Assembly (NCBI RefSeq): GCF_900143005.1
Contig: NZ_FRCS01000007.1
Location: 62,001 to 126,000 of the forward strand
DNA: 64,000 nt
Source of the DNA: Cryptosporangium aurantiacum
GTDB taxonomy: Bacteria > Actinomycetota > Actinomycetes > Mycobacteriales > Cryptosporangiaceae
Direction: 5' to 3'
Shown: positions 229-62,306 of the stretch, one piece after another
Layout of the letters: every line of letters starts with the position of its first letter
Position numbering within the stretch: position 1 is the first letter of the stretch
Made by a program: the position numbers and the translations under genes
The notes under the pieces: generated by a model
Seen by the model: the letters and a program-made list of their open reading frames with translations, nothing else
Database searches by the model: none
Told to the model about the DNA's origin: nothing

Positions 229-244
229 GCGGACGATTGTCCGC
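229..244. promoter_or_regulatory. Palindromic operator, copy 1 (upstream of IclR gene)
   Basis: GCGGACGATTGTCCGC is a perfect 6-bp inverted repeat with a 4-nt spacer. The same pattern, GYGGAC-N4-GTCCG, recurs at 321-336 and 1207-1222, always near the start of the IclR gene or the catabolic operon. I infer it is the binding site of the IclR-family protein encoded at 349. It lies about 105 bp upstream of that gene's start codon, so it would sit in or near its promoter. Confidence 0.6.
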
Positions 245-348: not shown

Positions 349-1167
349 ATGGCGAACCGTGGAACCGGGCCGGACTTCGTCGAGGCCCTCGCCCGAGGGC
401 TGGACGTGCTGGCGTGTTTCGACGCGCGGCGGCCGGTGATGTCGCTGAGCGAGGTGGCGGCCGCGACCGACCTGGCCCGTCCGACCGCGCGCCGGCTGCT
501 GCTGACGCTGGAGGAGATGGGGTACGTCCGCACGGCCGAGGGCGGCGGGTTCGCGCTCACGCCGAAGGTGCTCTCGCTGGGCATGGCGTACGTCAGCTCG
601 CAGGGGCTGTGGGACATCGCCCGGCCGCACCTGGAGCGTCTGGTCGCCGCGACCGGGGAGTCCTCGTCGATGGCGCAGCTCGACGGCTCGGACATCGTCT
701 ACGTCGCCCGGGTGTCGGTGCCGAAGATCATCACGCTGCGGGTGGACATCGGCACCCGGTTCCCGGCGGCGCAGACCTCGCAGGGCAAGGTGCTGCTGGC
801 CGGGCTTCCGCCCGCCGAGGTGGAGCACGTGCTGGCGGAGCCCAGCCGGGCGGGGTTGCCGCCGTACACCGGACGCGACGCCGGGGACTTCGCGGCGGAG
901 CTGACCGAGGTGCGGGCGCGGGGTTGGGCGCTGGCCGACGAGGAGCTGGCGCCGGGGGTGCGGTCGGTGGCCGCGCCGGTACGCGACGGTTCGGGACGGG
1001 TCCGCGCGGCGATGAACGTGACCGTGCACGCGGCCGAGACGCCGCTGGAGACGCTGCTCGACGTGCACCTGCCACGGCTGTTGCGAGCGGCCGGGGACGT
1101 GAGCGCGGAGTGGGCGCTCTGGCAGTCCCGCCCGCACGTCGAGGTTAATCGCTCACAGACGGCGTGA
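349..1167 (+). CDS. IclR-family transcriptional regulator (PcaR/PcaU-like) of aromatic catabolism
   Basis: A 272-residue protein with an N-terminal winged helix-turn-helix (about residues 10-70, with SLSEVAAATDLARPTARRLL as the recognition region) and a C-terminal IclR effector-binding domain (about 85-255). Length is standard for the PcaR/PcaU/PobR group, whose members sense aromatic acids or ring-cleavage products and repress or activate the adjacent catabolic operon. GGAGGA lies 8 nt before the ATG. It is followed in the same direction by the CoA-transferase/lyase/dioxygenase operon, and the shared palindromes at 229, 321 and 1207 make it the likely controller of that operon and of itself. 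The effector is unknown. Confidence 0.9.
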   Translation: MANRGTGPDFVEALARGLDVLACFDARRPVMSLSEVAAATDLARPTARRLLLTLEEMGYVRTAEGGGFALTPKVLSLGMAYVSSQGLWDIARPHLERLVAATGESSSMAQLDGSDIVYVARVSVPKIITLRVDIGTRFPAAQTSQGKVLLAGLPPAEVEHVLAEPSRAGLPPYTGRDAGDFAAELTEVRARGWALADEELAPGVRSVAAPVRDGSGRVRAAMNVTVHAAETPLETLLDVHLPRLLRAAGDVSAEWALWQSRPHVEVNRSQTA

Positions 1168-1206: not shown

Positions 1207-1222
1207 GCGGACAAGTGTCCGT
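1207..1222. promoter_or_regulatory. Palindromic operator, copy 3 (catabolic operon promoter)
   Basis: GCGGACAAGTGTCCGT is the third copy of the GYGGAC-N4-GTCCG palindrome. It lies between the -10 element and the start codon at 1244, overlapping the expected transcription start of the catabolic operon. Confidence 0.65.
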
Positions 1223-1243: not shown

Positions 1244-2395
1244 GTGGCCGCACAGCAACCGAGTGGGCCCCTCGCGGGCGTCGTCGTCGCGGACTTCTCG
1301 CGGGTGCTGGCCGGGCCGTACGCGACGATGCTGCTCGCGGACCTCGGAGCCGAGGTGATCAAGGTCGAGGGGCCCGGCGGCGACGACACCCGCGGCTGGG
1401 TGCCGCCGACCCGGGGTGACGTCGGCACGTACTTCCTGGCGGTGAACCGCAACAAGCGGTCGATCGCGCTGGACCTGAAGGACCCGTCCGACCGCGAGGT
1501 GGCGCACGCGCTGTCGGCGCGGGCGGACGTGTTCATCCAGAACTTCAAACCGGGCGGGTTGGCGCGCTTCGGGCTGGACTACGACGCGGTCCGCGGCCGT
1601 AATCCCCGGACGATCTACTGCTCGATCAGCGGTTTCGGCGCCGGCGGTGGTGCGGCGCTGCCCGGTTATGACTTGCTGGTGCAGGGGATGTCCGGGTTGA
1701 TGAGCCTGACCGGCGCGCCGGACGGCCCGCCGTTCCGCGCCGGGATCTCGGTGTTCGACGTGATGACCGGCCTGCAGTCGGTGATCGGGATCCTCGCCGC
1801 GCTGCACCACCGGGACCTGACCGGCGAGGGCCAGCACGTCGAAACGAACCTGCTGTCGACCGCGCTGTCCACGTTGGTGAACCAGACCTCGGCGTACGTG
1901 GCCGGGGGAGTGGTGCCGACCCGGATGGGCAACGCGCACCTGAGCCTGTTCCCGTACGAGCCGCTGCCGACCGGCGATGGCGAGCTGATCGTCGTCGCGG
2001 GCAACAACGGGCAGTTCCGGCGGCTGGCCGAGGTGCTCGGGCATCCGGAGTGGGCGGACGACGACCGGTTCGACACGGTCGGCAAGCGCAACGACAACCG
2101 CGAGGAGCTGCGTCCGCTGCTGGTGGCGGCGCTGGCGGCGAAGAGCGCGCAGGACTGGTTCGGGATCCTCACCGAGGCCGGGCTGCCGTGCGGGCCGATC
2201 AACACCGTCCAGGGCGGCGTCGAGCTCGCCGAACGTCTGGGGCTGGAGCCGGTCGTCGAGGTCGAGGGTGTGCCGAGCGTGCGGAACCCGATCGGGCTCT
2301 CGGCCACCCCGCCGAGCTACCGGCTCCCGCCTCCGGCGCTCGACGAACACGGCGACGAGATCCGCCGGTGGCTCGCGGAGGTCCCTCGTGCCTGA
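1244..2395 (+). CDS. CaiB/BaiF (class III) CoA-transferase
   Basis: 383 residues, full length for family III CoA-transferases, which move CoA between carboxylic acids through an aspartyl-CoA intermediate. The N-terminal signature (PLAGVVVADFSRVLAGPYAT and the LADLGAEVIKVE segment) and the later GYD/MSLTG region are typical; the catalytic Asp is expected in the YDLLVQGMSGLMS region at about residue 145. GTG is chosen as start because AGGGG lies at a good distance and the family normally begins this close to the signature. It overlaps the next gene by 8 nt, so the two are translationally coupled. Together with the citryl-CoA-lyase homologue it suggests CoA activation and then thiolytic or lyase cleavage of a tricarboxylic ring-fission product; the substrate is unknown. 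Confidence 0.88.
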   Translation: MAAQQPSGPLAGVVVADFSRVLAGPYATMLLADLGAEVIKVEGPGGDDTRGWVPPTRGDVGTYFLAVNRNKRSIALDLKDPSDREVAHALSARADVFIQNFKPGGLARFGLDYDAVRGRNPRTIYCSISGFGAGGGAALPGYDLLVQGMSGLMSLTGAPDGPPFRAGISVFDVMTGLQSVIGILAALHHRDLTGEGQHVETNLLSTALSTLVNQTSAYVAGGVVPTRMGNAHLSLFPYEPLPTGDGELIVVAGNNGQFRRLAEVLGHPEWADDDRFDTVGKRNDNREELRPLLVAALAAKSAQDWFGILTEAGLPCGPINTVQGGVELAERLGLEPVVEVEGVPSVRNPIGLSATPPSYRLPPPALDEHGDEIRRWLAEVPRA

Positions 2396-3206
2396 ATATC
2401 CCACCGCGCTCGGCGCGTCGAGCAGGCACACGATCACGCTGCTCGGCCAAGACCTCGCCAACGACGTGATGGGCCACGTGGGGTTCGGTGAGCTGGCGTT
2501 CTGGCTGGCCACCCAGCGCCGTCCCACACCCCACGAGACCCGCGTCTTCGAGGCGGTGCTCGCGGCGCTGGCCGACCACGGGTTCACCCCGACCGCGATC
2601 GTCACCCGCCTGACGTACCTGTCGGCGCCGGACTCCGTGCAGGGCGCGCTGGCCGCCGGGCTGCTCGGCGGCGGTTCGCGCTTCCTCGGCGTCACCGAGG
2701 ACTGCGGACGGTTCTTGCACGACGTCGTCGTGAACGCGGAAGCCCTGCCGACGGACGACGAAGGCTGGGACGCCCTCGCGCGGGAAACCGTCACCGCGCA
2801 GCGCGAAGCGAAAAAGCTCATTCCCGGCCTCGGGCACCACGTCCACAAGGACGGCGACCCGCGCACGCCGCGGCTGTTCGCGATCGCGGCCGAGGAGGGC
2901 CTCTACGGCCCGCACCTGAGCCTGTTCGCCGCGATCGGCCGCGTCCACCCGGAGATCCTCGGCAAGAGGCTGCCGCTCAACGGCGCCGGGGTCTGCGGCG
3001 CGGCGCTGGCCGACCTCGGCCTGCCGCTGGAGCTGCTGCGGGGCTTCGCGCTGCTGGCTCGTACCGCGGGACTGATCGGACAGCTAGCCGAGGAACTCCG
3101 GCATCCGGTCGCGAACGACGTCTTTCTCTCGGTAGACCTCAACAACCGGTCCGTCGCTCCCCCCATCGATGAGCTCAAGTCCTACGGAGGCAGCCACCAT
3201 GGCTGA
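2388..3206 (+). CDS. Citryl-CoA lyase / citrate synthase-like protein
   Basis: About 272 residues, much shorter than citrate synthase (about 370-430), with the citrate-synthase-superfamily signature GHHVHKDGDPRTPRL at about residues 148-162. This resembles the citryl-CoA-lyase part of ATP-citrate lyase and the stand-alone citryl-CoA lyases, which split citryl-CoA into acetyl-CoA and oxaloacetate. The start is GTG 2388, inside the end of the CoA-transferase gene; longer in-frame extensions run through that gene and are not credible. It ends 8 nt inside the next gene. The operon context suggests its substrate is a citryl-CoA-like thioester made by the upstream CoA-transferase from an aromatic ring-fission product (inference). 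Confidence 0.8.
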   Translation: MPEYPTALGASSRHTITLLGQDLANDVMGHVGFGELAFWLATQRRPTPHETRVFEAVLAALADHGFTPTAIVTRLTYLSAPDSVQGALAAGLLGGGSRFLGVTEDCGRFLHDVVVNAEALPTDDEGWDALARETVTAQREAKKLIPGLGHHVHKDGDPRTPRLFAIAAEEGLYGPHLSLFAAIGRVHPEILGKRLPLNGAGVCGAALADLGLPLELLRGFALLARTAGLIGQLAEELRHPVANDVFLSVDLNNRSVAPPIDELKSYGGSHHG

Positions 3207-4065
3207 ACTCGTCGCGGTGATCGCGTCCACCCACCATCCGTTCTACTACAAGACGAGCACGCTGCCCGAGGAGGAACGTCCGCCGTTCGCCGCGGAGTGG
3301 ATCAGCAAGATCCAGAACTTCCGCGAGACGCTCACCAGAGCGCGCCCGGACGTCCTGGTGATGGTCGGCTCCGACCACTTCCATCAGCTGTGGCTGGACA
3401 ACATGCCGCAGTTCCTGGTCGGCAAGGCGCCGGTCTACGACGCGAACTGGTACAACGAGGAACGCGAGTTCGGGCTGCCGCGGATGCGCCTGGCCGGCGA
3501 CGAGGCGTTCAGCCAGCACATCCTCCGCGAGGGCCTGGACGCGGGCTTCGACCTGGCGTTCAGCAACGAGCTGCGGATCGACCACAGCATCACGTGCCCG
3601 ATCATCACGCTGCGGCCCGAGGCCGACCTGCCGATCGTCCCGATCTACACGAATATCTTCGCGCCGCCGCTGCCGCAGCCGAAGCGGTTCGTGCAGCTCG
3701 GACGCACGATCCGGGAGCTGGTCGAGTCGATGCCGGGCAACCAGCGGGTCGCGGTGGTCGGCACCGGTCACCTGTCGCTGGAGCTCGGCGGGCCGCGGCA
3801 GTTCGGACCGACCGGGCCGGACCCGGAGTTCGATCGCAAGGCCGTCGAGTGGATCGCGTCCGGCGACATCGAGGGTTGCCTGGCGGAGGTGACGCTCGAC
3901 AGCCTGCACCTGCCGGGTAACGCGACCCACGGGTTCATGGATTTCATGCTGATGATGGGCGTCGCGGGTGAGGGCGCGAAGGCCGACTACGTGGAGACCG
4001 TCGACCTGTTCCACACGATGGAGGCCTACTTCACCTGGTACCCGAAGGGGGTCGAGTCGCTGTGA
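3199..4065 (+). CDS. Class III extradiol ring-cleavage dioxygenase, LigB-type catalytic subunit
   Basis: 288 residues with the LigB fold signature: a His pair near the N-terminus (ASTHHPFYY, His12/13), the GSDHFHQLW motif (His60/His62) and GTGHLSLELGG (His191), which correspond to the metal and acid/base histidines of protocatechuate 4,5-dioxygenase LigB. Such enzymes use Fe(II) to open protocatechuate, gallate or related catechols between C4 and C5. The start ATG 3199 has GGAGG eight bases upstream and overlaps the previous stop; an in-frame ATG 30 nt earlier lacks this. The LigA-type partner follows with a GTGA overlap, so the active form should be a LigAB heteromer. The exact substrate cannot be read from sequence. 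Confidence 0.88.
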   Translation: MAELVAVIASTHHPFYYKTSTLPEEERPPFAAEWISKIQNFRETLTRARPDVLVMVGSDHFHQLWLDNMPQFLVGKAPVYDANWYNEEREFGLPRMRLAGDEAFSQHILREGLDAGFDLAFSNELRIDHSITCPIITLRPEADLPIVPIYTNIFAPPLPQPKRFVQLGRTIRELVESMPGNQRVAVVGTGHLSLELGGPRQFGPTGPDPEFDRKAVEWIASGDIEGCLAEVTLDSLHLPGNATHGFMDFMLMMGVAGEGAKADYVETVDLFHTMEAYFTWYPKGVESL

Positions 4066-4421
4066 GCAAGTACCTGATCAACAAGTTCCTGTTCACGGTC
4101 GACCGCGATCCCGACCTGGTCGCCCGGTACAAGGCCGACCCGGCCGGCACGGTGGCCTGGTGGGAGGCCGAGAAGGCCAACGAACTGCTCAACTGCACCA
4201 CCGCCGAGCGTTCGACCTATCAAGCCTTTGCGGACGACGAGCGCGAGGCGCTCGTCGCCCAGGACCACGTGCGGCTGTTCGAGATGGGTGCCCACCCGTT
4301 CCTCACGCTGACGCTGTTCATCGCGATGTTCGAGCACGACCACGAGCCGCTCGGCTACGTGAAGGCCTACGCCGCGAAGATGGAGCACCTCACGCTGCCC
4401 TATCCGGACATCGCCACGTAG
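4062..4421 (+). CDS. LigA-type alpha subunit of extradiol dioxygenase
   Basis: 119 residues, similar in length and composition to the small helical LigA subunit of protocatechuate 4,5-dioxygenase, which caps the LigB active site. Recognisable features are the RYKADP segment, the LLNCTTAERSTYQAF helix and the MGAHPFLTLTLF region. The GTG start overlaps the LigB stop as GTGA, so the two subunits are made in a coupled way. It is the last gene of the operon; a strong hairpin follows at 4435. In many gallate dioxygenases LigA is fused to LigB, so separate subunits make this closer to LigAB than to GalA. Confidence 0.87.
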   Translation: MSKYLINKFLFTVDRDPDLVARYKADPAGTVAWWEAEKANELLNCTTAERSTYQAFADDEREALVAQDHVRLFEMGAHPFLTLTLFIAMFEHDHEPLGYVKAYAAKMEHLTLPYPDIAT

Positions 4422-56270: not shown

Positions 56271-57212
56271 CTAGCTGACGGGGGGCGTGCCGTGGGTGTG
56301 GAACGTCTCGATCGTCTTGAGTCCCCAGGCCTGGCCCTTCGCGCGCTCGGCCTGGGTCCACGAGATCAGCTCCCAGTCCGGCGCCAGCACCAGCCGCGCA
56401 CCGGCGTTGCACAGCTCGATCCGGTTGCCGCCCGGCTCCCAGACGTAGAGGAAGAACGTCTGCTGGATCGCGTGTTTGTGCGGGCCGGTCTCGATGTGGA
56501 TCCCGTTCTCCAGCATCACGTCCGCGGCCCGCAGGATGTCTTCCCGGGTGTCGGTGGCGAACGCGACGTGGTGCAGCCGCCCGTGGGTGCCGGTCCAGTC
56601 GTTGGTGTAGACGAGGTCGTAGGACTTGTCGGAGACCGTGTACCAGATCGCGGAGACGTCGCCGGAGTCGAGCACGATCTGCTCGGTCGGCCGGGCCCGC
56701 AGGCTCTCGGTGAGGAACCGCCCGCACGCCGGGGTGTCGACCGACAGGTAGTTGACGTGGTCGAGCCGCCGCACGTTCGCGCCGCGCCCCGGGAACCGAT
56801 CGGCCTGGTTCTTCAGCGCCGGCCCCTTGCCCGGCGACGGTGTGAACCGCTCGGTCTCCCAGTACAGCCCGACCTCGTGGCCGTCCGGGTCGGTACAGAG
56901 GTAGATCCTGCCGATCCCCAGCTCGTCCTCGACCCAGGAGCCGGTACCGATCTGGGCCGCCCGCCGCTCCAGGGCCTGCGGCGACGCGGCCCGGACGTAC
57001 GTGCGGCCGATTCCCGACGTCGAACTGGCCGTGAGTTTGACCGTGAATCGCTCGTAGTCGTCCCACGCGTGCAGGTAGACCGAATCGCCCTGCCGGCCGG
57101 ACTCGCTCATCCCCAGCAGATCGACGAAGAACGCGCGGCTCTCCTCCGGGGTCGGGGTGAACAGCTCGACCGAGCCGACGTGGGCGAGGTCGCGGACGCG
57201 CTCGGTGAACAT
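56271..57212 (-). CDS. Type I (VOC-fold) extradiol dioxygenase, XylE/DmpB-like
   Basis: 313 residues, the size of catechol 2,3-dioxygenases, with two VOC repeats in each half. The Fe(II) facial triad of XylE is present: His152 (RRLDHVNYL), His215 or 216 (GRLHHVAFAT) and Glu266 (GGNRIELCN); the His and Tyr active-site residues of the C-terminal domain are also visible. ATG 57212 is chosen because GGGAG precedes it. Last gene of the galB-galC-galD operon, 20 nt after galD. It probably cleaves the catecholic substrate that enters that pathway, perhaps gallate or a related triphenol; this differs from the GalA enzyme, which is of the LigAB type. Confidence 0.87.
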   Translation of the reverse strand: MFTERVRDLAHVGSVELFTPTPEESRAFFVDLLGMSESGRQGDSVYLHAWDDYERFTVKLTASSTSGIGRTYVRAASPQALERRAAQIGTGSWVEDELGIGRIYLCTDPDGHEVGLYWETERFTPSPGKGPALKNQADRFPGRGANVRRLDHVNYLSVDTPACGRFLTESLRARPTEQIVLDSGDVSAIWYTVSDKSYDLVYTNDWTGTHGRLHHVAFATDTREDILRAADVMLENGIHIETGPHKHAIQQTFFLYVWEPGGNRIELCNAGARLVLAPDWELISWTQAERAKGQAWGLKTIETFHTHGTPPVS

Positions 57213-57232
57213 GAGGTCTCCCTGGTCGGTGG

Positions 57233-58300
57233 TCACGGTCGGGGCCAGGCCACGCCGTCGAAGAGCTTGCGAGCCGTGCTCAGGACGCTGATTCGCGCGT
57301 CCTCCGGGGCGGCGTCCGGGTCGTTCGCGGTGTCGAAGTGGCCGGTCGGGTGCTCGATCCGGATCCGGCTTCCGGCGTGCGCCGCCGAGCCGACGACGTC
57401 GGCGGCGACCGAGCCGGGCAGCGCGACCGCGGTCGCGACGCTGATCCCGGCCAGCACCCCGATCGCGGGGTGGCAGCGGTGCGGGATGAACGTGCGCGTC
57501 GTCAGCGTGCCGCCGTTCCGCGGCGGCGCCACCAGCGTCATCTTGGGCACGGTGGCGCCGGAGACGTCACCGAGGCCCATCAGCGTTCCGGCCCGGAGCC
57601 GTAGCGCTTCCAGCCGGGCCCGCAGCAGGTCGTTCGCCTCCAGCTCGGTCGTGGTCTCGTACCCGCTGACGCCGAGCGAGGCGGCGTTCACGAGCACCAC
57701 CGGCATCCCGTTGTCCACACAGGTCACCGGCGTGCCGTCGAGGTCGTCGCGGACCGAGCCGGTGGGCAGCAAGCCGCCGCAGATCGCGCCGGCGGTGTCG
57801 GCGAACCGGATCGACACCGGCGCGGCCGGGAACGGCGCTCCGGCGATCACCGTGTTCCCGTCGTACCGCACCCGGCCGCCGGACGTCCGGATCGTCGCGA
57901 TCGCCAGGCCGCCGGTGTTGACCATCCGGATCCGCACGGTCGTGATCTCCGGCCCGGCCTCGACCAGCCCGCGTTCCACCGCGAACGGCGCGATCCCGGC
58001 CAGGATGTTGCCGCACGGCTGGCCGGTCGAGACCGTGGCGCGGTCCGGGACGATCTGCAGGAACAGGTAGTCCACGTCGGCGTCCGGGTCGTTCTCGCTG
58101 CGGCTCACCACGGCGGCCTTGCTGGTCAGCGGATGGCCGCCGCCGATACCGTCGACCTGCCGCTCGTCCGGGGAACCGAACAGCCGCAGCAGCAGGTCGT
58201 CGCGGGCCGCGGCCTCGGCCGGTAAGTCCTCGGCGAGGAAGTACACCCCCTTCGACGTGCCACCGCGCATCAGCAGGCAGCGGACCCCGTCAAACGCCAT
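57233..58300 (-). CDS. galD: 4-Oxalomesaconate tautomerase-like (GalD, PrpF family)
   Basis: 355 residues of the PrpF/AcnD-accessory family that includes Pseudomonas GalD, which isomerises the keto/enol and double-bond forms of 4-oxalomesaconate. Motifs: LMRGGTSKGVYF near the N-terminus (catalytic base region), PCGNILAGIAPFA (Cys at about 95) and RCHPAIGVLAG. It overlaps the upstream galC gene by 11 nt. PrpF-like isomerases of methylaconitate are related, but the galB/galC neighbours favour oxalomesaconate. Confidence 0.85.
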   Translation of the reverse strand: MAFDGVRCLLMRGGTSKGVYFLAEDLPAEAAARDDLLLRLFGSPDERQVDGIGGGHPLTSKAAVVSRSENDPDADVDYLFLQIVPDRATVSTGQPCGNILAGIAPFAVERGLVEAGPEITTVRIRMVNTGGLAIATIRTSGGRVRYDGNTVIAGAPFPAAPVSIRFADTAGAICGGLLPTGSVRDDLDGTPVTCVDNGMPVVLVNAASLGVSGYETTTELEANDLLRARLEALRLRAGTLMGLGDVSGATVPKMTLVAPPRNGGTLTTRTFIPHRCHPAIGVLAGISVATAVALPGSVAADVVGSAAHAGSRIRIEHPTGHFDTANDPDAAPEDARISVLSTARKLFDGVAWPRP

Positions 58301-58976
58301 GCTTCACGTACTCCACGCCGAGTCGCTCCAGCAGCGGCCGCAGCCGGTACCGGTCCAGGCCCAGCTCCCCGGCGGCCAGCGCCGCACGGGTGGCGTCTTC
58401 CGCGGTCTCGCGCGCCCGGGAGGCCTCGACCACGGCGTCCACCTCTGCCCGGGGCACCACGACGACGCCGTCGTCGTCCGCGACCAGCGCGTCCCCGGGG
58501 TGCACCAGCACCCCACCGACCGCGATCGGGACGTTGACCGCGCCCGCGGTGGCCTTGACGGTCCCCTGGGCGCTCACCGCCGCCGACCAGACCGGGAACG
58601 GAAGCTCTCGCAGTTCGGCGACGTCCCGGACGCCGGTGGTCAGTACCGCGCCCCGTACGCCGCGGCTGCGCAGCGATGTCGCGAGCAGTTCGCCGAACAG
58701 GCCGTCGCGGCACGGTGAGGTCGTGGTGACGAGCAGTACGTCGCCGGGCGCGCACTGCTCGACCGCCGCGTGGATCATCAGGTTGTCACCCGGCCAGCAA
58801 ACCGCCGTGACCACCGCACCGGCGATGCAAGCCCCGGGCACCCGCGCGACCAGGTCGGGGCCGAGGTACCCGGTGCGGCCCTGCGCCTCGTGCACGGTGG
58901 CCACGCCGAACCCGCGCAGCGCGTCCAGGCTCGCCGCCGCCGGGCGGGGGACGTCGGTGACGATGACCGTCCTCAT
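58290..58976 (-). CDS. galC: 4-Carboxy-4-hydroxy-2-oxoadipate aldolase (GalC/LigK, RraA fold)
   Basis: 228 residues of the RraA/HMG-aldolase family: DALRGFGVATVHEAQGRTGY, WPGDNLMIHAAVEQCAPGDV, RGVRGAVLTTGVRDVAEL (Arg-Asp metal/phosphate site) and GDALVADDDGVVVVP. LigK/GalC splits 4-carboxy-4-hydroxy-2-oxoadipate to pyruvate and oxaloacetate with a divalent metal. Its start overlaps the galB stop as ATGA; it overlaps galD by 11 nt. Confidence 0.87.
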   Translation of the reverse strand: MRTVIVTDVPRPAAASLDALRGFGVATVHEAQGRTGYLGPDLVARVPGACIAGAVVTAVCWPGDNLMIHAAVEQCAPGDVLLVTTTSPCRDGLFGELLATSLRSRGVRGAVLTTGVRDVAELRELPFPVWSAAVSAQGTVKATAGAVNVPIAVGGVLVHPGDALVADDDGVVVVPRAEVDAVVEASRARETAEDATRAALAAGELGLDRYRLRPLLERLGVEYVKHGV

Positions 58977-59698
58977 GCGAGCTCCGTCGTCACCTGCGGG
59001 TAGTACCGCATGTAGGCCTCGGCCTTGGTGTCGCTGGTCAGCCCCAGGTTTGGTCCGGCATTGCGCTTGAGCTGGACGCCCCGGCGGGTCGCCAGGTCGG
59101 TGTAGTACGACCACATGTGTTGCTGGGCGGGTAAGCAGCCCATCGCCTTCTGCTTGGTCTCGAACACCGGCGTGACGTCGAGCAGCACCTGCGGGACGAA
59201 GCCGCACTGCTCGGGCTGGTGCGGTTCGAAGAAGAACACCGGCGGGGCGCCGAGCGGGTCGCCGGGCGCGGGGTACCCGATGGCCTGCGCCAGCACCCGC
59301 GCTTCCAGCGCGATCCGGGCGGCGACCGGGTGGTCGCCGTTGTACGGGTCCTCCAGCGGATGCGTGAGGACCACGGTCGGCTGCAACTCGCGGTAGAGGT
59401 GGACGAGCCGGTCGGTGATCGTCTCGCTCGGGCGGAGCGGGTAGTCACCGGCGTCGAGGAACTCGATCCGGGCGCCCAGAGCGTCGGCCGCGCTCTCCGC
59501 CTCCGACCGGCGGATCGCCTTGATCTCCTCCAGCGTGTGGCCCTCGCGCCAGGCCCGCGCGGACTCGCCACGCTCGCCGTAGGTGAGGCAGACGACGGTC
59601 GCGGTGCCGCCGCGAGACGTGGTCAGCGCGACCGCACCGCCGGCGCGCCAGACGAAGTCGCCGGCGTGTGCGCTGACGACCAACAAAGACTCCGACAC
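58973..59698 (-). CDS. galB: 4-Oxalomesaconate hydratase-like (GalB, PIG-L fold)
   Basis: 241 residues of the PIG-L/LmbE-like zinc hydrolase superfamily in which Pseudomonas GalB hydrates 4-oxalomesaconate. The zinc motif is SAHAGDFVW, varying from the usual AHPDD, with a second His in DPYNGDHPVA; the C-terminal QQHMWSYYTDLATRRGVQ is typical of GalB-like proteins. GTG 59698 is chosen because GGAGG sits four bases ahead. First gene of the operon; the GntR regulator diverges from it at 59849. Its PIG-L family also includes sugar deacetylases, but neighbours support the hydratase. Confidence 0.85.
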   Translation of the reverse strand: MSESLLVVSAHAGDFVWRAGGAVALTTSRGGTATVVCLTYGERGESARAWREGHTLEEIKAIRRSEAESAADALGARIEFLDAGDYPLRPSETITDRLVHLYRELQPTVVLTHPLEDPYNGDHPVAARIALEARVLAQAIGYPAPGDPLGAPPVFFFEPHQPEQCGFVPQVLLDVTPVFETKQKAMGCLPAQQHMWSYYTDLATRRGVQLKRNAGPNLGLTSDTKAEAYMRYYPQVTTELA

Positions 59699-59749
59699 GG
59701 GTCCTCCGATTTCGGGCGGTCTCGCGGCTCCCCGGGTTGTGCACGATAC

Positions 59750-59757
59750 TGTTAACA
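59750..59757. promoter_or_regulatory. Palindrome in the galB/GntR divergent region
   Basis: TGTTAACA is a perfect 8-bp palindrome midway between the divergent galB (59698) and GntR (59849) start codons, with a second palindromic GTGCAC 11 nt to its left. GntR/FCD regulators often bind short AT-centred palindromes, so it may be their operator; it is short and could be chance. Confidence 0.4.
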
Positions 59758-59848
59758 ATCTGGCGGGTGGGCAGTGTTGTCAAGCGGAGGACGAGAAGCC
59801 GGTGACTAGCATGATGCGGACACTTCTCGAACCGGCGGAGACCGACAC

Positions 59849-60544
59849 GTGACGTCGCCTGAATCGGACCCGGTGCCGCTCGCGCCGGTCACAGCCGACC
59901 GCACCCACGCCCCCGCGGACGCCGACCGGGTCGCCGACGGGATCCGGTCCGCGATCCTCGCCGGGGAACTCGTCGCCGATCAGCGGCTGGTGGAGGCGGA
60001 ACTCTCCGAGCGGTACCGAGCGAGCCGCGGCGCGGTCCGCACCGCGCTGCTCGTGCTCGCGCACGAGGGACTGGTCGAGCGGATCGCGAACCGGGGTGCG
60101 CGGGTCCGGGCGGTCAGCATCGAGGAGGCCATCAACATCACCGAGGTGCGGATGGTCGTCGAGGGGCTGTGCGCCGCGAAGGCCGCCGAGCGGGTCACCG
60201 ACGCCCAGATCGCCGAGCTGCGCGGCCTCGCCGACGCGATGCGCACCGCGGTCGCGACCGGCGAGGTGCTGACGTACTCGCAGCTCAACGAGCAGCTCCA
60301 CGGTCTGATCCGGGAGATCGCCGCGCAGCCCGTCGCCGCCGAGGTGCTGGCTCGGCTGCGGGCGCAGAACGTACGCCACCAGTTCCGGCTGGCGTTGCGT
60401 CCGGGGCGGCCGCAGGTGTCGCTGCCCGAGCACCTCGCGATCATCGACGAGATCTGCGCCCGCAGCCCCGGTGGCGCCGAGCGGGCGATCCGACGGCACA
60501 TCCAGAGCGTCATCGACGCCCTCCGCGCCAGCGGCCCGCAGTAA
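59849..60544 (+). CDS. GntR-family (FCD/FadR-type) regulator
   Basis: 231 residues: a winged helix-turn-helix (about 25-90, RSAILAGELVADQRLVEAEL, then SRGAVRTALLVLAHEGLVER) and an FCD all-helical effector domain (100-225, with metal-ligand candidates in the AHEG... and NEQLHGLIREIA and PEHLAIID regions). Divergent from galB, it probably controls the gal operon and itself. GGCGGAG precedes GTG 59849. The effector is probably a ring-cleavage intermediate (inference). Confidence 0.88.
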   Translation: MTSPESDPVPLAPVTADRTHAPADADRVADGIRSAILAGELVADQRLVEAELSERYRASRGAVRTALLVLAHEGLVERIANRGARVRAVSIEEAINITEVRMVVEGLCAAKAAERVTDAQIAELRGLADAMRTAVATGEVLTYSQLNEQLHGLIREIAAQPVAAEVLARLRAQNVRHQFRLALRPGRPQVSLPEHLAIIDEICARSPGGAERAIRRHIQSVIDALRASGPQ

Positions 60545-61380: not shown

Positions 61381-62306
61381 ACCGCGAGATCCCCCCAGGC
61401 GGGCAGCTCGAGCGGCCGGTCCTCCCGGACCACCAGCGCGGCCGCGGCACACCGGTGCCCGAGCCGGACGGCGTCCTCGACGTCCAGGTCGCGCCACCGC
61501 CCGGCGAGGTACCCGGCGGCGAACGCGTCACCGGCCCCGACCGGCTCCACGACGTCGACCTCCAGCGCGGGCACGTGCCACGGCGGCCGGTCTCCGTCGA
61601 GCACCAGCACGCCGCGTTCCTCCTGTTTGAGCAGGATCCGCTCGGCCCGGGGGAGCGCGCGGCGCAGCGCGTCCGGGGTCGCGGCGCCGAACACGGCAGC
61701 GGCCTCGTCGGCGCCGAGCAGCACCTCGTCCGCGCGGGCCAGCAGGCGGCGCAGCGGCGCGTCGTCGCGGTCGCGCCAGAGCGCGGGCCGGTAGTTGAGG
61801 TCGACGCAGAGCCGGATCGTCGCCGGCAGCGCGTCACAGAACGCCGCCGCGCTGTCGGAGAGGCCGGGCGTGATGCCGCTGACGTGCACGAGCGCGGCCC
61901 CGGCGAGGACCGCGGCGACGTCCGGCCGGGCCAGGTAGCCGGGGGAGAGCGCGGAGGCGGCCGAACCACGGCGGTAGTAGAGCATCGCCGAGCGCCGGGA
62001 GCCGTCGTGTGCGGTGCCCGGCGACTTGACGTAGAGGCCGGTCGGGCGCGCCGGGTCGAACTCCAGGCCGGACACGTCGACCCCCGCGGCCCGCGCGGTG
62101 GCCGCGATGTGGTGCCCGAACCCGTCGTCGCCGAGCCGCGACAGCCAGGCGGTGGGGACGCCGAGCCCGACCAGCGTCAGCGCGACGTTGAGCTCGGCGC
62201 CCCCGACCGTGCGGATGAACGTCGACGCGTCGGCGAGCGGGACGTCGTCCGCGGGGGTCAGCACGACCATCGCTTCGCCGACGCAGACGACCTTTGACCC
62301 GGACAT
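61377..62306 (-). CDS. kdgK: PfkB-family carbohydrate kinase, 2-keto-3-deoxygluconate kinase-like
   Basis: 309 residues with ribokinase/PfkB signatures: VGGAELNVALTLVGLGV (sugar-binding) and DVVEPVGAGDAFAAGYLAG (the anion hole and catalytic Asp). KDG kinases phosphorylate 2-keto-3-deoxygluconate for the Entner-Doudoroff route. Here no KDG aldolase or uronate genes are present, so the assignment is by family resemblance and shared operon with an IclR regulator. It is divergent from the dehydratase gene and both share the operator at 62338. Confidence 0.82.
   Translation of the reverse strand: MSGSKVVCVGEAMVVLTPADDVPLADASTFIRTVGGAELNVALTLVGLGVPTAWLSRLGDDGFGHHIAATARAAGVDVSGLEFDPARPTGLYVKSPGTAHDGSRRSAMLYYRRGSAASALSPGYLARPDVAAVLAGAALVHVSGITPGLSDSAAAFCDALPATIRLCVDLNYRPALWRDRDDAPLRRLLARADEVLLGADEAAAVFGAATPDALRRALPRAERILLKQEERGVLVLDGDRPPWHVPALEVDVVEPVGAGDAFAAGYLAGRWRDLDVEDAVRLGHRCAAAALVVREDRPLELPAWGDLAV

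Follow-up and report, generated by a model that had tools for sequence, protein, structure and literature searches.

The operon and its conservation

We examined a 64-kb window (the whole stretch of 64,000 nucleotides analysed here, positions 62,001 to 126,000 of contig NZ_FRCS01000007.1) from the genome of Cryptosporangium aurantiacum. Near its start, four overlapping genes encode a CoA-transferase (CoAT), a citryl-CoA-lyase-like protein (CCL), and the two subunits of a LigAB-like ring-opening enzyme. The operon, its presumed regulator and two copies of a palindrome are arranged as follows.

230..243, strand not assigned (.): palindrome CGGACGATTGTCCG, likely operator, upstream of the IclR gene
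349..1167, + strand: IclR-family regulator of PcaR/PcaU/PobR type; PF01614 120.5 bits, TIGR02431 265.6 bits (below the cut-off of 284.75)
1208..1221, strand not assigned (.): palindrome CGGACAAGTGTCCG, likely operator, upstream of the operon
1244..2395, + strand: CoAT, family III (CaiB/BaiF); GTG start, 383 aa; PF02515 388.8 bits (cut-off 23.3)
2388..3206, + strand: CCL, citrate-synthase-fold, citryl-CoA-lyase-like; GTG start, 272 aa; PF00285 65.1 bits (cut-off 27)
3199..4065, + strand: LigB-like ring-opening subunit with an altered active site; ATG start, 288 aa; PF02900 82.6 bits (cut-off 26.3)
4062..4421, + strand: LigA-like small subunit; GTG start, 119 aa; PF07746 15.9 bits (below the cut-off of 25.3)

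The initial annotation had described four tightly overlapping genes, and their coordinates, strand and junction overlaps (8, 8 and 4 nt in the order CoAT/CCL/LigB/LigA) all hold. The closest solved structures to CoAT are CaiB/BaiF proteins, CCL scores 274.5 bits against the citryl-CoA lyase subfamily NF004868 (cut-off 193), and TIGR02431 is the best NCBIfam match of the regulator, though under its cut-off. The last gene was named LigA-like from its position behind LigB and from an alignment of its product with other small subunits; those of related loci score 22.8 and 21.5 bits against the same PF07746 cut-off of 25.3.

We scanned named genomes with an alignment of three LigB members as query. 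At least 519 LigB relatives were returned, and the best 80 of the 519 were kept, a set biased toward close relatives of the window LigB. Gene order, which the initial annotation had suggested following across genomes, proved to be fully kept in this set, with CoAT-CCL-LigB-LigA on one strand in 80/80 loci. An IclR gene is present in 78 of the 80, an amidohydrolase (AmH) in 76 and an MDR-type oxidoreductase in 51. The loci without AmH are L012, L031, L049 and L050; L012 and L050, both short contigs, also lack IclR. The top NCBIfam match of the MDR oxidoreductase is PIG3 quinone oxidoreductase (78.1 bits, below the cut-off of 296.8). Clustering of the called neighbour proteins of 92 loci recovered the same gene set; one further cluster exceeded 10 loci (29), and its example resembles a wrong-strand call over LigA. 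The open reading frame caller was crude and missed genes (the CCL and LigA clusters number 70 and 32 in the 92 loci, and tblastn finds more), and the motif counts given below for orthologues refer to called members. Loci L001-L005 and L092 were excluded from the neighbour-gene censuses. A MetE/URO-D-like protein, possibly for demethylation, lies near the module in 7 of the 92 loci (e.g., L013:11246-12322 and L131:8842-9984, both of which were searched and match PF01717).

Outside this set, CCL, LigB and LigA are found together in five rhizobial plasmid loci. CoAT was detected in four of the five (all but L167). A relative of FMN reductases of the flavodoxin type is likewise present in four (all but L133), and an AmH-type protein of 37-39% identity in two (L132 and L133).

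We also followed the co-occurrence of these genes in 394 genomes, an even draw from the host's class, together with that of a hydroxyquinol-1,2-dioxygenase relative (HQD) discussed below. The thresholds were E <= 1e-150 for LigB, about 60% identity or more for CCL, at least 65% for AmH and at least 60% for HQD, which left out weaker matches to LigB in 14 of 39 genomes, to CCL in 6 of 50, to AmH in 2 of 37 and to HQD in 36 of 45. LigB passed in 25 genomes, CCL in 44 (43 and one partial at 72%), AmH in 35 (one partial) and HQD in 9. LigB and CCL occur together in 24 genomes versus 2.8 expected, and LigB and AmH in 24 versus 2.2, figures that are not corrected for kinship of the genomes. Among the 29 genomes with both AmH and CCL, LigB is present in 23, HQD in 7, both in 1 and neither in 0. 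The partial sets include G209, where LigB stands with a second AmH type below threshold, G353, where HQD is present without CCL, and G051, where AmH, IclR, CoAT and CCL recur as a second copy at the end of a contig and no ring opener can be seen. The kept order and the excess of LigB with CCL bear out the earlier proposal that the four products belong together, and a coupling of ring opening with CoA chemistry is well supported by the comparison of loci and genomes.

Ring openers, active sites and a shared palindrome

Within the module, LigAB is replaceable by HQD. An HQD-group protein occupies the LigAB place in L168, L170-L175 and L180; those of L168, L171-L174 and L180 score above cut-off for both PF00775 and PF04444, and that of L173 matches PnpC (E 6.6e-73) and 1tmx (E 1.3e-72). 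Two Tyr and two His, which we take to be the iron ligands, are conserved in the HQD alignment. No HQD was found among the searched loci (L006-L121), and LigB is absent at E <= 1e-30 from the seven class genomes whose module carries HQD. The same gene order is seen in two Rhodococcus loci, L007 (strain NBC_00297), which carries LigB-LigA, and L168 (R. opacus G13), which carries HQD. The two have in common IclR, an FAD hydroxylase (85% identity), a hydrolase (81%), the amidohydrolase (89%), CoAT, CCL, a LeuD-like protein (61%) and a PucR-type protein (60%). In genome G291, a second locus (L203, 8155-14932) encodes an HQD copy (70%), a CoAT (64%), a relative of gamma-resorcylate decarboxylase (2dvt, E 1.8e-83; without an NCBIfam match) and an FAD hydroxylase that scores 583.8 bits against NF004829 (cut-off 390). 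No CCL was seen at this locus, which resembles a branch of the module's system for a (tri)hydroxybenzoate.

The LigB-like protein retains the fold of its family but, by residue tests, cannot be classed as a standard member of it. Alignment with LigB of SYK-6 places H12, H60, D128 and H129 at kept positions, including those of His12 and His61, whereas Gly245 stands at the position of Glu242 and Leu194 at that of His195; H191 is a new invariant residue. We take His12, His61 and Glu242 to be the iron ligands of LigB and His195 its catalytic residue, with Glu242 and His195 presumably essential throughout the family. Among the called orthologues, GHLSLELGGPRQF is present in 89/89, ATHGFMD in 87 and the canonical motif in 0/89, and H12, H60 and H129 are invariant across 29 aligned rows. 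The same changes occur in L117-L121, L134, L135, L137, L140 and the own-genome paralogue L002, and both canonical residues are kept in L004, L136, L138 and L139; in L001, a distant own-genome match, the His is kept and the Glu is displaced by one column. The AlphaFold model (pLDDT 84.2, pTM 0.89) has LigAB (1bou_B, TM 0.82) as its closest fold and drops below a pLDDT of 50 at residues 196-200, adjoining the altered motif. In a tree of the 29 rows, the variant clade (26) separates from 3 canonical rows with support of 98/97, but long branches meet at this split, and the tree therefore supports the alignment only. A sister LigB group with an SGHMAT motif (L142-L148) also lacks the canonical Glu and His and has a CoA-transferase III gene in the loci read. 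L142 and L144, which were searched by family, encode an Amidohydro_2 protein, an OsmC-like protein and an MDR alcohol dehydrogenase but no CCL; this group is possibly a second CoA-linked ring-opening system.

CCL likewise has the fold of its family (E 5.9e-30 to the citryl-CoA lyase 6hxp) and, by the same kind of test, cannot be classed as a standard member either. It keeps both His motifs (H64 and H150), and we take the His of the DHG and GxGH motifs of citryl-CoA lyase to be the two catalytic ones. The Asp of LNVDG, presumably also catalytic, is replaced by A200 (LNGAG in the window). LNGAG is found in 67 of the 70 called orthologues and N.DG in none (0/70), and the Asp is absent in 16/16 aligned members from actinobacteria and proteobacteria. 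Because the Asp is lost, function as a citryl-CoA lyase is doubtful, and since all 16 aligned NF004868 members are without it (among them L008-L011, L131-L133, L167, L171, L172, L176, L183 and L189), the family name is probably misleading. In five loci (L176, L177, L179, L181 and L189), a CCL relative adjoins an AMP-forming CoA ligase-like protein instead of CoAT, the family being confirmed for L189 only, which suggests that CCL probably acts on the CoA thioester of a free acid. LeuC/LeuD-type genes lie near the relatives in L009 and L183, and neither kind of neighbour was seen in L178 and L182. In R. rhodochrous (L008), CoAT and CCL occur without LigAB, and a VOC protein and an FAD oxidoreductase are encoded nearby.

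The palindrome CGGACN4GTCCG has only two sites in the window; simulated 64-kb sequences (n=30) had a mean of 0.9 and a maximum of 3. It lies no more than 350 bp upstream of an IclR, AmH or CoAT match in 81/81 loci, which are related and not independent, and 152 of the 161 sites in 1.6 Mb fall in such upstream places. It is present in L007 and in HQD loci including L168. Two copies precede the unlinked AmH gene of the host. The host genome has 26 sites versus 8 for the reversed control, with four at the module. A PcaR-type IclR protein probably controls the module through CGGACN4GTCCG sites. A further site (L222) lies near CoA-ligase- and CoA-transferase-like genes.

Candidate substrates and the proposed pathway

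If two unrelated ring openers feed the same CoAT and CCL, they should yield the same acid. For LigAB and HQD to give one product, the simplest substrate would be a vicinal polyol such as 1,2,3,5-tetrahydroxybenzene, as the extradiol cut of gallate type and the intradiol cut of hydroxyquinol type would coincide on a compound that combines a vicinal triol with a 1,2,4-triol. The in-place exchange narrows the substrate to a short list, and a polyhydroxybenzene is probable. We give about an even chance to the reading that the operon belongs to a conserved module for the degradation of an electron-rich polyhydroxybenzene, which LigAB or HQD would open and CoAT and CCL would carry on to acetyl-CoA and a C4 acid. 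In such a pathway, the LigAB-like enzyme would cut between two hydroxylated carbons (HQD-type enzymes performing the same step in relatives), the ring-fission acid, possibly after an AmH step, would become a CoA thioester through the family III CoAT, and the Asp-less CCL would cleave this thioester. Acetyl-CoA and an oxo-acid would be a sensible output for such a lyase. The version that we prefer begins with 1,2,3,5-tetrahydroxybenzene (hydroxylated phloroglucinol), which the metal-site-variant LigAB or HQD would open to 2,4-dihydroxymuconate, equivalent to 2,4-dioxoadipate; CoAT would make 2,4-dioxoadipyl-6-CoA, and CCL would add water in a retro-Claisen cut between C4 and C5 to give acetyl-CoA and oxaloacetate. 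We propose this bacterial central pathway tentatively, as in this full form it is rather unlikely.

AmH may contribute a step between ring opening and the thioester. The host's own AmH (76% identity) is on contig 13 and its MDR oxidoreductase (67% and 62%, in two pieces) on contig 9, both unlinked to the operon. Glu is found at the HxxE place after TTH, which we take to be a deaminase motif, in 0/85 called members, and this weakens the idea of AmH as a deaminase. Our guess, by loose analogy with LigI, is that AmH could be a lactonase acting on a pyrone form of the ring-fission product. A second guess concerns the MDR oxidoreductase and the FMN-reductase relative of the rhizobia, which might serve to keep an oxidation-prone polyphenol reduced. 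At L184-L188, AmH occurs without a CCL match, no CoAT, CCL or ring opener was found in the stretches read, and AmH may have a separate role in those genomes. Upstream genes in L007, L168, L123 and L180 encode an FAD hydroxylase and a relative of 2,6-dihydroxypseudooxynicotine hydrolase; in these Rhodococcus-type clusters, the hydrolase matches 2jbw (E 1.7e-31) and the hydroxylase scores 427.9 bits against NF004829 (cut-off 390), and both would fit a supply from acyl-polyphenols. The gamma-resorcylate-decarboxylase relative next to HQD and CoAT in L203 would suit polyphenol supply as well.

Several observations weigh against the polyhydroxybenzene module. The positions of Glu242 and His195 in LigB and of the LNVDG Asp in CCL have all changed, as described above. 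At two rhizobial loci, L134 and L135, LigB-LigA stands without CoAT or CCL within the stretches read, and in the neighbour census most loci have no hydroxylase adjoining the core. Genome G352 has LigB, AmH and IclR with no CCL match at threshold, G291 carries both ring openers, and among the 394 genomes 6 have AmH without CCL and 13 have CCL without any other part. The palindrome is missing before the host's MDR (quinone-oxidoreductase) gene, and L123, L203 and the six rhizobial loci examined do not have it. In addition, contig 5 of the host genome has two copies in the gap between pobA-like and pca genes (L221, 8322-8448), and the palindrome may thus belong to PcaR-type regulators at large. 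Counted in favour of the module is a variant LigB-LigA paralogue on contig 3 of the host (L141, 6726-10113), which lies beside an FAD monooxygenase and an FAA hydrolase.

Among the alternatives, a hydroxyquinol variant would have 1,2,4-trihydroxybenzene opened to maleylacetate by HQD or LigAB, maleylacetyl-CoA formed by CoAT and hydrolysed by CCL to acetyl-CoA and maleate, and malate made from the latter by a LeuCD-type hydratase. The HQD group is named for hydroxyquinol, LeuCD relatives include maleate hydratases, and LeuD-like genes follow the ring opener in L007 and L168 with LeuC/LeuD-type genes near the related lyases of L009 and L183. However, such genes (LeuD-like) are absent from most loci, and the scheme needs an intradiol cut of hydroxyquinol by LigAB, for which we know of no precedent in that class, so that this variant is possible but somewhat improbable. 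It is also conceivable, though unlikely, that the LigB-like protein, instead of being a dioxygenase, uses the LigB fold as a metal-dependent hydrolase or lyase, with AmH or another protein opening the ring. The residue changes throughout the LigB clade and the missing HxxE Glu of AmH are consistent with such a division of labour, and KpiC offers a precedent, being described in the accessible text of its report as an amidohydrolase-fold ring-opening dioxygenase (PMC7356986). However, the nearest relatives given for KpiC in that text belong to a different subfamily from AmH, H12, H60 and H129 of LigB are invariant, and the component that trades places, nearly one for one, with an intradiol ring-cleavage enzyme is LigAB, whereas AmH is retained.

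The initial annotation had favoured protocatechuate, gallate or a methoxylated relative as substrate, opened to an acid of the 4-carboxy-4-hydroxy-2-oxoadipate (CHA) type whose CoA ester the citryl-CoA-lyase-like enzyme would split. The family names of the four proteins speak for this, as does the LigB fold, which is nearest to LigAB and DesB. Family searches found no 4-oxalomesaconate or CHA enzyme within the operon, but a second aromatic cluster lies at 56271-59758 (- strand) of the window and contains the following features.

within 56271-59758, - strand: catechol-2,3-dioxygenase-like VOC protein (281.2 bits, below 320.2)
within 57233-58967, - strand: 4-oxalomesaconate tautomerase (480.7 bits, cut-off 440)
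within 57233-58967, - strand: CHA aldolase (NF006731 297.2 bits, cut-off 179; TIGR02798 275.4 bits, below 304.5)
within 56271-59758, - strand: PIG-L protein, presumably of the family of GalB

A GntR gene lies at 59849-60544 (+ strand). By its gene content, this cluster is a predicted CoA-free lower pathway with a VOC-type ring opener. Contig 5 of the host carries the beta subunit of protocatechuate 3,4-dioxygenase (361.6 bits, cut-off 296.4), PcaD (277.0 bits, cut-off 255.85), a 4-hydroxybenzoate 3-monooxygenase that exceeds a cut-off and a PcaF-like thiolase that falls short of its cut-off. Exchange of LigAB for an HQD-type intradiol enzyme would fit neither protocatechuate nor gallate. With separate genes for those routes, this exchange and the lost Asp of the lyase, the reading is quite unlikely, and gallate, protocatechuate and CHA were set aside as substrates. 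Of the CoA chemistry proposed earlier, a probable thioester of a free acid is supported by comparison, and the CHA line is not. Directly downstream of the operon, genes on the opposite strand from 4443 read like an iron-siderophore ABC system by inspection of their reading frames.

Comparison with known systems

We found no description of this gene set or breakdown route in the open-licence literature. The operon shares with LigAB and DesB (protocatechuate 4,5-dioxygenase and gallate dioxygenase, class III extradiol enzymes) the fold, PF02900, a small-subunit gene right after LigB and the H12 and H60 positions. However, it lacks the Glu of position 242 and the His of position 195, and its partners are a CoA-transferase and a lyase-like enzyme rather than 4-oxalomesaconate and CHA enzymes. 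CCL has in common with citryl-CoA lyase of Aquifex/Hydrogenobacter (6hxp) and the lyase part of ATP-citrate lyase the citrate-synthase fold (by sequence), both His motifs and NF004868, but differs in the LNVDG Asp, replaced in all 16 aligned members, and in the placement of its gene with a CoA-transferase or CoA ligase. The hydroxyquinol pathway (HQD, maleylacetate reductase, 3-oxoadipate) has its counterpart in the HQD-type enzyme that replaces LigAB in relatives of the operon. In the module, however, a CoA-transferase and a lyase-like enzyme follow directly, and the window operon itself has LigAB and not HQD; no maleylacetate reductase was noticed among the recurring neighbours, though no model search was aimed at this enzyme.

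If the proposed pathway is correct, it would be a widespread route of aromatic degradation, with its LigAB form in 25 of the 394 class genomes, and the database names of its enzymes would probably be misleading. Plant-polyphenol carbon would gain a CoA-dependent exit in soil actinomycetes and, rearranged, in rhizobia. Two mechanistic questions would follow: by what means a LigB fold lacking the canonical Glu and His operates, and which reaction is carried out by a citrate-synthase fold that has lost its Asp.

The isoflavone A-ring (ifc) system of Variovorax (PMC11069340) has an FAD hydroxylase and a 2,6-dihydroxypseudooxynicotine-hydrolase relative in common with L007 and L168. That system differs in its glyoxalase-type ring opener, and no CoA-transferase/lyase pair is described in the accessible part of the report. 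We did not equate the module with such flavonoid A-ring pathways, since most loci are without an adjoining hydroxylase and the nearest relative of the Rhodococcus FAD hydroxylase in the host genome is 31% identical. The fungal central pathway for 1,2,3,5-tetrahydroxybenzene, as far as the available text of its reports goes, depends on a DUF3500-type ring opener (PMC12388069) and is described as currently restricted to fungi (PMC13094099). Its central intermediate is the same as the one proposed here for the operon of C. aurantiacum (PMC12388069, PMC13094099).

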